DNA of 33,492 bases from contig CACWVN010000040.1 of the NCBI GenBank assembly GCA_902764285.1, positions 1 through 33,492 on the forward strand. The letters are read 5' to 3'. The notes under the pieces are model-generated. The model was not told where the DNA came from. It saw only the letters and a list, made by a program, of their open reading frames with translations, and did no database searches. Each line of letters opens with the position of its first letter. Position 1 is the first letter of the stretch. This document shows positions 19,332 to 33,492 of this stretch, piece after piece. Origin of the DNA: an uncultured Eubacteriales bacterium (GTDB lineage: Bacteria > Bacillota > Clostridia > Christensenellales > Aristaeellaceae). The position numbers and the translations under genes were made by a program.

Positions 19332-20123
19332 ATGCCCAACGCACAATCCGGCTTCTTTGAGTGGGTATTATTTTTCATCAAGACCCAGGGCTCGCTGTTC
19401 CTGCGCGGCGCGGGCGTCACGCTGCTGATCTCGCTGACGGGCACCATCGCGGGCTTCATCATCGGCCTGGCGGTGGGCTACGTGCGCGCCAGGCCCCTCC
19501 AGAAGGAGGACGGCGCGGGCCGCTACTGGCTGATGAAAGTCGTTCGCGCGATCCTCGGCGCGTACATCGAGATCTTCCGCTCCACGCCCATGATCGTGCA
19601 GGCCATGGTCATCTTCTACGGCATCTCAGCGGTGTTCCATGTCACGCTGCCCTATCTGCTGGCGGGCTTCATCATCGTGTCGATCAACACCGGCGCGTAC
19701 CTTTCCGAGATCGTGCGCGGCGGCATCCAGTCCGTGGACCCGGGCCAGCAGGAAGCCGCGCTGGCCATCGGCATGACCTACGGCCAGAGCATGCTGCACG
19801 TGGTGCTGCCCCAGGCCATCCGGAATATCCTGCCGGCGCTGGGCAACGAATTCGTGGTCAACATCAAGGATACCTCGGTGCTGAACGTGATCGCCGTCAC
19901 GGAGCTGTTCTACGTATCCAAGAAGGCGGCGGGCACCTATTATAAATACTTTGAGGTGTTCTTCATCACCAGCTGCGTCTACTTCGTGATGACGTTCACC
20001 GTCACGCGCATCCTGCGCTGGCTGGAGAAGAAGATGGACGGCCCGGAGAACTACGTCATCCACGGTTCGCAGACCGTTCCGGACGTGGAACTGATCGGCA
20101 AGGGAGGCGAAAAGCATGCCTGA
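19332..20123 (+). CDS. Amino acid ABC transporter permease (HisM/GlnP family)
   Basis: A 263-residue permease of the polar amino-acid uptake family, forming the membrane channel for the upstream binding protein. About five hydrophobic helices are visible. The coupling (EAA) motif is [20 protein letters not shown], and [18 protein letters not shown] is the conserved cytoplasmic-side helix. A 20-residue insertion of charged residues around 55-70 is mild. No strong ribosome-binding site precedes the ATG at 19332 (GAG near 19324). Its 3' end overlaps the ATPase gene by 8 bp. Confidence 0.94.
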
Positions 20124-20871
20124 GACCATCATCGAAGTGCGCCACCTGAGCAAGTCCTTCGGCGACCACGAGGTGCTGCGCGACGTGGATTTCTCCGTAG
20201 GCAAGGGCGAAGTCGTCTCCATCATCGGCAGCAGCGGCTCCGGCAAATCCACGCTGCTGCGCTGCATGAACCTGCTGGAAAAGCCCACGGGCGGCGAAGT
20301 GCTGTACCATCGCAGGAACATCCGCGACGCGGGCTTCGACCTGCACATGTACCGTGCCCACGTGGGCATGGTGTTTCAGCAGTTCAACCTGTTCAACAAC
20401 ATGACCGCGCTGGAAAACTGCGTGGTGGGCCAGATGAAGGTGTTGAAGCGAAGCCGCGCCGAGAGCGAGAAGATCGCCCTGGATTACCTGTGCAAGGTGG
20501 GCATGGACCTGTACGTCCACGCCAAGCCCCGCCAGCTCTCCGGCGGCCAGAAGCAGCGCGTGGCCATCGCCCGCGCGCTGGCCATGAACCCGGAGGTGCT
20601 GCTGTTCGACGAGCCCACCAGCGCCCTGGACCCGGAGATGGTCGGCGAAGTGCTGGCCGTCATGAAGGACCTGGCCGCCTCGGGACTGACGATGCTGGTG
20701 GTCACCCACGAAATGGGCTTCGCCCGGGATGTGTGCGACCGCGTGGTGTTCATGGACGGCGGCGTGATCGTGGAGAGCGATACGCCGGAAGTGATCTTCA
20801 CGCAGCCCAAGCACCCGCGCACGCGGGAATTCCTGGCCCGCGTGCTGCAGAGCGAGCCGCAACCGGTTTGA
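20116..20871 (+). CDS. Amino acid ABC transporter ATPase (GlnQ/HisP family)
   Basis: A 251-residue nucleotide-binding subunit. Walker A is GSSGSGKS (38-45), the Q-loop [10 protein letters not shown], the signature LSGGQKQR, Walker [17 protein letters not shown], and the switch His in [12 protein letters not shown]. The GGVIVES and [10 protein letters not shown] segments close the fold as in GlnQ. It overlaps the permease gene by 8 bp, with AGGGAGGCG just upstream of its ATG, so it is translationally coupled and completes the presumed lysine importer. Confidence 0.95.
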
Positions 20872-31797: not shown

Positions 31798-31852
31798 CAT
31801 GCCTCCGGCCTGACAGCCCGATCCATCCTCACGCATGAATGAAAGGACGCCT

Positions 31853-33013
31853 ATGAGCATACGCGACCAACTGCGCGGCGTGCGCTTCGTCTATCCGCTG
31901 CTCAGCGCCGGCCGGCGAATCGGCGGCCGCGCTTTGATGCGCCTGTTCCACGCAATTCACGGCATCGACGGCAACGCGGTGCTGTTCTCCAGCTACGTGG
32001 GCAGGGGCTATTCCGACAACCCGCGGCGCATCAGCGAAGCGCTGCACGCGATCCGGCCGCAGACGCGCATCGTCTGGCAGCTGCTGCCCGGATGCGTTCC
32101 GGAGGACCTGCCGGGCTATGTGGAGGTCATCCCCGCGCGCACCCTGCGGGCGGTGCGGGCCTTTTCCACCGCGCGCTGCTTCGTGGACAACTTCAACCGG
32201 CCCCAGTACATGCTGAAATTCCCCGGGCAGCTGTACGTGCAGACCTGGCACGGCGACCGCGGCTTCAAGAAGGTGCTGATGGACATGGGCACCGGCGAGC
32301 CCTTCCCCGACGGCGGCCAGATGGATCTGGCGTTGTCGGGTTCGGATTTCGGCAGCCGCGTGTACCGCAGCGCCTTCGGCTATGACGGCGAGATCATGGC
32401 CGTCGGCTGTCCGCGCAACGACATGCTGGTGAACCCGCCCGAGGGCGCCGCCGCGAAGGTTAGAAAGGCCCTGGGCATCCCGGAAGGCGCGAAGGTTTTC
32501 CTGTACGCGCCCACGTTCCGCGACGCCACCGCCGGAAAGGCGCAGGACGCGCTGCTGGATCTGGAGAAGGCGCGGGCCGCGCTGGAATCCGCCGCCGGCG
32601 GGCGCTGGATCGCGCTGGTCCGCGGCCACGACCTGAACCGCGGCGTGACCGCCGGCGCATCCAAAGATGTCAGCGACTACCCGGAGGTGTCCGAGCTGCT
32701 GCTGGCCGTGGACCTGCTGATCACCGATTACTCCTCCATCGGCGGCGATTTCATGCTGCTGAACCGGCCGGTGATCTACTACCAGCCCGACCGCGCGCGC
32801 TACGACCGCGAGCTGTACTTCGACCCTGACCAGAGCCCGCTGATCGTGGCCCATACCGAAGATGAGCTGCTGGACCTTCTGTCCAAACCCATCGACGCCG
32901 CCGCGAACTGCCGCGCGGTGCTGGATTTCTTCGGCGCCCACGAGAGCGGCCATGCCGCCGAAGCCGCGGCCCGCTGGATCGCCGCACGGATGGACGGCGA
33001 TTCACCGCGCTAA
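31853..33013 (+). CDS. CDP-glycerol glycerophosphotransferase family protein (TagB/TagF-like)
   Basis: A 386-residue peripheral membrane transferase of the glycero/ribitol-phosphotransferase family, which primes or polymerises teichoic-acid-type polymers from CDP-alditols. Diagnostic segments are FVDNFNRPQYMLKFPGQLYVQ, TWHGDRGFKKV (131-141), AVGCPRND, FLYAPTFRD (217-224), the RGHDL region and LLITDYSSIGGDFMLLNRPVIYY. The ATG at 31853 is preferred because AAAGGA at 31842-31847 precedes it; an in-frame ATG at 31835 lacks a site. Single-domain length suggests a TagB- or TagF-type enzyme without an N-terminal GT2 domain. No tagD-like gene is in the window. Confidence 0.9.
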   Translation: MSIRDQLRGVRFVYPLLSAGRRIGGRALMRLFHAIHGIDGNAVLFSSYVGRGYSDNPRRISEALHAIRPQTRIVWQLLPGCVPEDLPGYVEVIPARTLRAVRAFSTARCFVDNFNRPQYMLKFPGQLYVQTWHGDRGFKKVLMDMGTGEPFPDGGQMDLALSGSDFGSRVYRSAFGYDGEIMAVGCPRNDMLVNPPEGAAAKVRKALGIPEGAKVFLYAPTFRDATAGKAQDALLDLEKARAALESAAGGRWIALVRGHDLNRGVTAGASKDVSDYPEVSELLLAVDLLITDYSSIGGDFMLLNRPVIYYQPDRARYDRELYFDPDQSPLIVAHTEDELLDLLSKPIDAAANCRAVLDFFGAHESGHAAEAAARWIAARMDGDSPR

Positions 33014-33036: not shown

Positions 33037-33066
33037 TTGACAAACCCCGGGTCGGCGGCCTATAAT
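33037..33066 (+). promoter_or_regulatory. Promoter of the DAHP synthase leader
   Basis: Perfect TTGACA (33037-33042) and TATAAT (33061-33066) with an 18-bp spacer, about 30 bp before the leader-peptide start. Confidence 0.88.
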
Positions 33067-33098
33067 TGATCCAATTCAAGGATGGAGGCGCCATCGAC

Positions 33099-33161
33099 GT
33101 GAAGACCTTCCCGAACACCGCTTACAGCTATTACTTTTACTTTATCGGCACTGGCAGATAA
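33099..33161 (+). CDS. Tyr/Phe-rich leader peptide (attenuator)
   Basis: A 20-codon open frame starting at GTG 33099 and ending at TAA 33159-33161. GGAGG lies at 33084-33088, 10 bp upstream. It encodes Tyr at positions 9, 11, 12 and 14 and Phe at 4, 13 and 15: seven aromatic residues in twenty, with five in the run YYFYF. This is the signature of a control peptide for ribosome-mediated attenuation of aromatic amino-acid genes. It sits between a strong promoter and a terminator upstream of a DAHP synthase gene. No Trp codon is present. Confidence 0.85.
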   Translation: MKTFPNTAYSYYFYFIGTGR

Positions 33162-33162
33162 A

Positions 33163-33237
33163 GCGCTTTGCTGTACGCGCAATCGGATACGGAAAATGTA
33201 ACGGTTCTGCAGCAAGACGCGCTGCGGGGCCGTTTTT
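33163..33237 (+). promoter_or_regulatory. Transcription attenuator (antiterminator/terminator pair)
   Basis: Terminator: 33200-33213 pairs with 33221-33234 over 14 bp (three G-U), with a seven-base loop and a T5 run at 33233-33237. Antiterminator: 33163-33175 pairs with 33208-33220 at 12 of 13 positions, consuming the 5' arm tip and loop of the terminator. The antiterminator's 5' strand begins 1 base after the leader stop codon. A ribosome resting there would mask it and favour termination, whereas one stalled at the Tyr/Phe codons would leave it free. Confidence 0.82.
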
Positions 33238-33292
33238 CATTGGCGCCAACGCCCGGCGCAGACAAACCGCGCATCACGGAGGATGAGAACAA

Positions 33293-33492
33293 ATGATCAT
33301 CATACTGAAGGACAAGGTCAACGAAAAGCAGGTGGAGAACCTGACCAACTGGCTGGAGGGCATCGGCTTCGATCTGCACATCTCCAGGGGCCAGAGCCAG
33401 ACCATCATCGGCCTGATCGGCGACACCAGCCGCGTGGACATGGACCTGATCGCGTCGCTGGACATCGTGGAGACCGTCAAGCGCATCCAGGA
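33293..33492 (+). CDS. aroF: DAHP synthase (3-deoxy-7-phosphoheptulonate synthase), N-terminal part
   Basis: The first 66 codons of a gene cut by the window end. MIIILKDKVNEKQVENLTN and SRGQSQTIIGLIGD match the N-terminal ferredoxin-like regulatory domain of type I-beta DAHP synthases, as in Thermotoga. This enzyme condenses phosphoenolpyruvate and erythrose-4-phosphate at the entry of the shikimate pathway, and the domain binds Tyr/Phe for feedback in relatives. The ATG at 33293 follows GGAGG (33278-33282, spacing 10). The catalytic barrel is outside the window, so identity rests on the small domain plus the Tyr/Phe attenuator. Confidence 0.8.
   Translation, partial: MIIILKDKVNEKQVENLTNWLEGIGFDLHISRGQSQTIIGLIGDTSRVDMDLIASLDIVETVKRIQ

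Follow-up and report, generated by a model that had tools for sequence, protein, structure and literature searches.

Control of aromatic amino acid synthesis in the Bacillota has mostly been described in terms of T-boxes and TRAP, a TRAP-controlled leader being one with about 11 (G/U)AG repeats spaced 2-3 nt apart. Leader-peptide attenuators of E. coli work through three alternative helices, 1:2, 2:3 and 3:4. The available part of PMC11802643 names the pheA, pheST and trp attenuators of E. coli and describes the AroR-aroF attenuator of Corynebacterium glutamicum (Neshat 2014), in which a stalled ribosome raises transcription and the aroR leader is reported to answer Phe and not Tyr. The uORFC-13-1 motif of Acholeplasma is a predicted uORF before aroF, with a promoter, RBS and terminator; according to the part available of PMC8632094 it comprises 24 sequences, from Acholeplasma and the environment only, has one or more Phe codons and folds in a distinct way. 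Peptide attenuators elsewhere in the Bacillota include a His leader before hisS/hisZ in bacilli, described as replacing T-boxes (PMC2965389), and the Leu-rich ilv leader of Staphylococcus aureus (PMC5794164). According to a 2005 survey of Actinobacteria, classical attenuation was not known for any aminoacyl-tRNA synthetase gene of the Firmicutes (PMC1262725); all three are cited from the parts available.

We analyzed a 33,492-nt stretch of DNA (the window), which is contig C40 of its genome, from base 1, and which ends inside a DAHP synthase gene, aroF. The anatomy and evolution of the sequence in front of this gene point to classical ribosome-mediated transcription attenuation, and it is very probable that this leader senses charged tRNA-Tyr and tRNA-Phe and so controls the aroF operon. 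It resembles AroR in having a leader peptide of the Phe-Tyr-Phe sort before an operon with a DAHP synthase gene, although AroR is actinobacterial and is reported to respond to Phe and not to Tyr, and the likeness, drawn from the description in the available part of PMC11802643, is one of kind. Like uORFC-13-1, it places a predicted uORF, together with a promoter, an RBS and a terminator, in front of aroF, but that motif, compared by its description in the available part of PMC8632094, is restricted to Acholeplasma and environmental sequences and has its own structure. As in the pheA, pheST and trp attenuators of E. coli, there are alternative helices, strand 1 contains the regulatory codons and the stop lies just before strand 2; unlike them, the window's leader mixes Tyr and Phe codons and serves a DAHP synthase operon, and no sequence homology is claimed. 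The His (PMC2965389) and ilv (PMC5794164) leaders, as far as the available parts describe them, are also peptide attenuators of Bacillota, but they differ in amino acid, gene and class. The open-licence papers searched yielded no Tyr/Phe leader in front of a clostridial DAHP synthase gene and no split into Tyr and Phe forms. The kind of attenuator is already known, and the Clostridia family is a widespread addition to it, with no Rfam match for the window's leader.

Anatomy and proposed operation of the leader

The original prediction, made from the sequence alone, had placed a consensus promoter, a 20-codon peptide with four Tyr and three Phe, a strand after its stop codon pairing at 12 of 13 positions with the 5' arm and loop of a 14-bp intrinsic terminator, and a DAHP synthase gene at the end of the window, and every one of these parts was recovered. 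The sigma-70-type promoter (33037-33066, + strand) consists of a -35 box TTGACA (33037-33042) and a -10 box TATAAT (33061-33066) separated by an 18-nt spacer, and agrees with the consensus at 12 of 12 positions. A block CCA(A/G)(C/T)TAAAG(C/T)A lies just 3' of the -10 box (e.g. near 1300 in L003); a strict pattern finds it at 17 of the 23 genus loci, and in the window it is altered. Between the promoter and aroF lies a putatively translated ORF with a start, a Shine-Dalgarno sequence and a stop. The Shine-Dalgarno-like GGAGG (33084-33088, +), also present in the rows of the relatives, is 10 nt 5' of a GTG start at 33099, from which 20 codons, four of them for Tyr and three for Phe, encode the peptide MKTFPNTAYSYYFYFIGTGR (33099-33161, +) and end at a TAA stop (33159-33161). 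The GTG was chosen from the position of the Shine-Dalgarno sequence and from the relatives; the program's ORF list begins the frame at a TTG within the -10 box. The Phe codons of the core (33135-33143) are both TTT, and TTC is dominant in most of the window ORFs counted; across 118 leaders the counts are TTT 429 and TTC 98. Stem pairing accounts for TTT at the second core Phe codon and leaves the first unaccounted for.

The aroF gene (33293-33492, +) is cut by the contig end after its first 66 aa, which match PF18152, the DAHP synthase ferredoxin-like domain, with 85.8 bits. The gene therefore belongs to aromatic metabolism, as the original prediction needed it to, and genes for Tyr and Phe come after it in relatives; the codon run of the leader matches the amino acids made by the operon, as read from the gene row of the genus. 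The gene upstream of the leader (31835-33013) is of the CDP-glycerol glycerophosphotransferase type and is non-aromatic.

Three helices can be drawn in the leader RNA, and both prediction and comparison find 1:2 and 3:4 to be mutually exclusive with 2:3, in an arrangement where the position of the ribosome would decide between them. Strand 1, within the coding sequence, supplies the 5' arms of the 1:2 hairpin (outer 33123-33128, inner 33140-33146, +), the 3' arms of which are at 33157-33163 (inner, containing the stop codon) and 33170-33175 (outer, +). Strand 2, the antiterminator half (33163-33175, +), forms 12 of 13 pairs with strand 3 (33208-33220, +), which lies inside the 5' arm and loop of the intrinsic terminator (33200-33240, +). 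This terminator precedes the structural gene and has arms at 33200-33213 and 33221-33234, giving 14 pairs around a 7-nt loop, followed by a T-rich tail. The original prediction was right about 2:3 and the terminator and overlooked the 1:2 hairpin, in which strand 2 pairs with part of the peptide's own coding sequence. The fold of 33101-33240 is unusually stable (z = -3.57, with 0 of 200 shuffles as good). The fold of 33162-33216 is not unusual (z -0.44), and the window's 2:3 duplex taken alone is ordinary, ranking only at 10% among shuffled partners and at 22% among swapped ones; support for this pairing therefore comes from the relatives.

If Tyr and Phe were plentiful, the ribosome would reach the stop codon and cover strand 2, the 3:4 terminator would form and transcription would end near 33235-33240. 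If charged tRNA-Tyr or tRNA-Phe were short, the ribosome would stall in the YSYYFYF codons and open the 1:2 hairpin, and the strand 2 freed in this way would pair with strand 3, blocking the terminator and allowing RNA polymerase to enter aroF. If there were no translation, the 1:2 hairpin would form and lead to termination. Fold predictions in which a ribosome footprint of 33 nt was masked gave 1:2 and 3:4 without a ribosome and 3:4 with the ribosome at the stop; for RNA extending to 33222, a ribosome placed at any of six Tyr/Phe codons tested gave 2:3 (P 0.75-0.79). For the complete transcript, the terminator 3:4 was preferred in all three of the states tested (no ribosome, stop and F13); antitermination would therefore have to win during transcription, as is usual for attenuators.

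Both Tyr and Phe presumably act on the leader in the window's species. Alternatively, a peptide attenuator here could answer Phe only, or a general slowdown of translation, with the Tyr codons carrying little weight; we consider this unlikely, though it deserves to be kept in mind. The precedent is AroR, which in the available description (PMC11802643) answers Phe and not Tyr, so that the Tyr input here may not be real, and the use of TTT, a minority codon in most window ORFs counted, for both Phe of the YYFYF core would also suit such a response. Against it, Tyr codons occur in every leader of the genus, and some leaders, namely L088 with 4 Tyr and L109 with 7 Tyr, lack Phe altogether.

Conservation and covariation of the helices

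The start of AroF was found in 22 of the 27 other genomes of the genus and was absent from 5; the RNA element was present in the same 22 and missing from the same 5. Including the window, all 23 genus genomes with aroF have a Tyr/Phe leader, and in 22 of the 23 loci (L014 is the exception) it follows the promoter pair TTGACA-17/18-TATAAT. The original prediction had named the lack of a conserved peptide or of conserved helices in related genomes as grounds for giving up a Tyr/Phe peptide attenuator; both are conserved, and that interpretation is supported. In an alignment of the 23 genus rows (A1), 98.1% of cells were paired for 1:2 and 3:4 together and 98.9% for 2:3. Because conservation is so high, covariation within the genus is thin: the outer 1:2 pairs are invariant throughout, 1:2 and 3:4 together show three pairs with changes on both sides, all of them in 3:4 (9 of 500 shuffles were as high), and 2:3 shows one such pair in a single row (19 of 500 shuffles). 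That row is the window's own, where the change is compensated (GCG/CGC vs GAG/CTC in most rows).

A search for second sites with the model R1 gave one strong match in the window's own genome, and the only strong second copy listed among the relatives was in G025:C5 (L167, 115.7 bits). There, within L167:247-1659, the attenuator copy stands before a shortened piece of aroF that runs into aroB-like sequence, followed by aroA (judged by eye); this is either a variant locus or an assembly chimera. Of the many weak R1 matches, the five loci viewed as possible further attenuators (L168-L172) look like ordinary terminators and were rejected.

A second alignment (A2) of 18 rows, 12 picked from the 23 genus rows and 6 from other genera of the family, gave clearer results for 1:2 and 3:4, with both-side changes at 13 of 26 pairs, a number reached by 0 of 500 shuffles and compared with 2-5 pairs in slid controls. 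For 2:3, 93.4% of cells were paired (0 of 500 shuffles as high) vs 32-50% in slid versions, and the covariation score was reached by 3 of 500 shuffles. The count of both-side-changed pairs in 2:3 was only three; 58 of 500 shuffles did as well or better, as did two of the slid versions, with 3 and 4 pairs. The count suffers from the placement of gaps in the loop, a problem that a duplex test made sequence by sequence avoids. In that test, which used the 100 of 118 leaders with a terminator between the Tyr/Phe run and the gene (the shuffled mean was 5.1), the cognate 2:3 duplex averaged -16.5 kcal/mol; with shuffled partners the average was -11.5 and with swapped ones -12.3 (Wilcoxon p about 1e-17 for each comparison, which is optimistic because the rows are related). 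The best 5% was reached by 56 of the 100 leaders against shuffles and by 34 of the 100 against swaps; in a few leaders, such as L040, L046 and L166, the 2:3 duplex was no better than shuffles.

Distribution of Tyr/Phe leaders and other forms of control

Of 150 relatives, a number that includes the genome of the window, 95 had the AroF start, and 86 of these 95 upstream regions were examined (8 were left out and 1 had too little upstream sequence). A strict rule required an ORF of 7-60 aa, no further than 350 nt upstream, with at least 4 Tyr/Phe in 6 residues; it found a leader in 67 of the 86 order genomes, representing 41 of 53 genera and 16 of 21 families: all 23 of the genus, 23 of 29 in the family's other genera and 21 of 34 in other families. 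Shuffled upstreams passed in 5.05 of 88 loci on average. A relaxed rule raised the count to 74 of 86 (null 9.65 of 88), with some of the extra matches looking poor. Among the 86, 19 therefore failed the strict rule and 12 the relaxed one, and L031, L058, L067, L085 and L086 are examples of real misses, with no Tyr/Phe leader. In L056 and L074, Tyr-rich short ORFs (FNAYYTAYGYYYLS and similar) end about 330-370 nt upstream of aroF, beyond the 350-nt rule.

Loci from public records, with titles from Clostridia, Oscillospiraceae, Lachnospiraceae, Christensenella and others, passed in 67 of 75 cases (null 6.25); these were selected because their AroF start resembles that of the window, come partly from the same genomes and are nearly all MAGs. 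Outside the order, 9 of 29 class loci (null 2.35) and 5 of 30 phylum loci (null 1.15) passed, the loci being those from the best PF18152 matches and no census, and on inspection by eye several of these leaders, most of all those of the phylum sample, are unconvincing.

It is improbable that the pattern comes from a constitutive terminator close to the promoter, with partial read-through, and that the Tyr/Phe ORF is a by-product of T-rich sequence. Codons for Tyr and Phe are indeed T-rich, and the ORF rule was passed by the reverse strand in 18 of the 146 pooled distinct upstreams. However, the forward strand passed in 117 of the same 146, dinucleotide shuffles in only about 5 of 88 and 6 of 75, and control stretches 900-1250 nt upstream in 1 of 134. 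Nor would a by-product of base composition be expected to show cognate 2:3 pairing in excess of shuffled and swapped partners, or a Tyr and Phe content that differs between paralogue leaders (see below). Control by a T-box, or by another tRNA- or ligand-binding leader without a translated peptide, is more improbable still: T-boxes are common in the window's genome, one precedes DAHP synthase in an order member, and 14 of the 59 class and phylum loci scanned contain one (some off the gene's strand or non-adjacent), but the window's leader matches no Rfam family at gathering score and its conserved core is a Tyr/Phe reading frame inside hairpins.

The Rfam scan of the leader returned sub-threshold matches only, to Spot_42 (19 of 80 bits) and ctRNA_p42d (16.3 of 50). 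T-box identity (RF00230) was rejected, as the covariance model had no match in the leader, and so was TRAP control, as there are 3 (G/U)AG triplets in 33067-33292 with a longest chain of 2. Elsewhere in the window, a lysine riboswitch (RF00168, 18133-18311, +, 104.3 bits) lies ~1 kb upstream of genes for an ABC transporter permease and ATPase (19332-20123 and 20116-20871). The genome has 18 T-box matches, 5 of them above gathering score; the ORFs downstream, scanned for 10 of the 18, include pheS, Ile/Leu/Met/Val- and Cys-type class I synthetases, HisS, an aminotransferase and a LeuA-type gene. With T-boxes and the aroF peptide leader side by side, the genome would thus use both kinds of control. 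The order member mentioned above (L087:1148-1402) has a T-box of 108.8 bits before DAHP synthase and no Tyr/Phe leader was found there, which is a change of mechanism within one order.

Leader residues and gene rows

In the genus, a mixed Tyr/Phe leader precedes the row aroF-tyrA-aroB-aroA-aroC-pheA-aroEK, which from its gene order and common strand would form one transcript. The tyrA gene follows aroF in 15 of the 16 genus loci L092-L107 (L100 has only 129 nt); in L093 the row is aroF-tyrA-GNAT-aroB-aroA. In all five genus genomes read further, aroC, pheA and aroE-aroK come next, with a gap of about 1.7 kb from pheA to aroEK in two of them.

Nine genomes have two AroF matches, and both copies were viewed in eight (G140, with its second match at a contig end, was left out). 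The comparison was restricted to such genomes because TYR/PHE labels placed on the AroF tree from simple counts were noisy within the genus; a "lone aroF" here is one with no tested pathway gene found in the available stretch. Both copies have leaders in six of the eight genomes; the two leaders contrast strongly in five of these and hardly differ in the sixth, and in G105 and G111 no leader was detected on the second copy. In G079, the Tyr leader GYAYAYCYC (4 Tyr and 1 Phe in all; L066) stands over aroF-tyrA and the leader SFSFAGFFTFTGFF (0 Tyr, 7 Phe; L063) over aroF-aroB-aroA-aroC-pheA-aroEK. In G059, G051, G035 and G089 a lone aroF has 4 Tyr/2 Phe, 4 Tyr/0 Phe, 6 Tyr/1 Phe and 4 Tyr/1 Phe, respectively, and the other copies have 1 Tyr/8 Phe over aroF-aroB-aroA-aroC-pheA (G059), 2 Tyr/6 Phe over aroF-tyrA-aroB-aroA-aroC-pheA-aroEK (G051), 1 Tyr/4 Phe over aroF-aroB and then the contig end (G035), and 1 Tyr/4 Phe over aroF-aroB, followed by roughly 10 kb in which no pheA was detected (G089). 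The sixth genome, G037, has 2 Tyr/4 Phe over aroF-tyrA and 2 Tyr/5 Phe over aroF-aroB-aroA-aroC-pheA-aroEK.

In several cases, therefore, the leader's residues go with the genes it precedes, in few genomes and with exceptions to any strict rule, i.e. G037, the Phe-rich row of G051 that holds tyrA and the Phe row of G089 without pheA. Across 72 loci, the Tyr fraction of the leader did not differ with the presence of tyrA (p 0.73). On the AroF tree, the Phe-type copies of G035, G059, G089 and G051 (L252-L255) group in a single starred clade that does not include L063 of G079, which makes two or more separate events likely. Specialisation of DAHP synthase isozymes in E. coli is known at the level of enzyme and repressor. 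On balance we lean towards the view that the leader is an evolvable two-input sensor, and that after duplication of aroF and splitting of the row each leader shifted towards the amino acid of the branch it serves: Tyr in front of aroF-tyrA or of an aroF that stands alone, and Phe in front of the row with pheA.

The wide spread, the Tyr-type and Phe-type leaders of the two-aroF genomes and the 1:2 hairpin were beyond what the original prediction was able to see. Within one order, 41 of the 53 genera examined have such leaders, and this group of Clostridia appears to run its Tyr/Phe pathway by a peptide attenuator; in the window's genome T-boxes are retained before aminoacyl-tRNA synthetase genes, pheS among them, alongside the aroF peptide leader. 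The natural Tyr-type and Phe-type leaders are suited to testing how specificity depends on leader codons. If the proposed shift of leaders is true, isozyme specialisation would be encoded in the codons of an attenuator.
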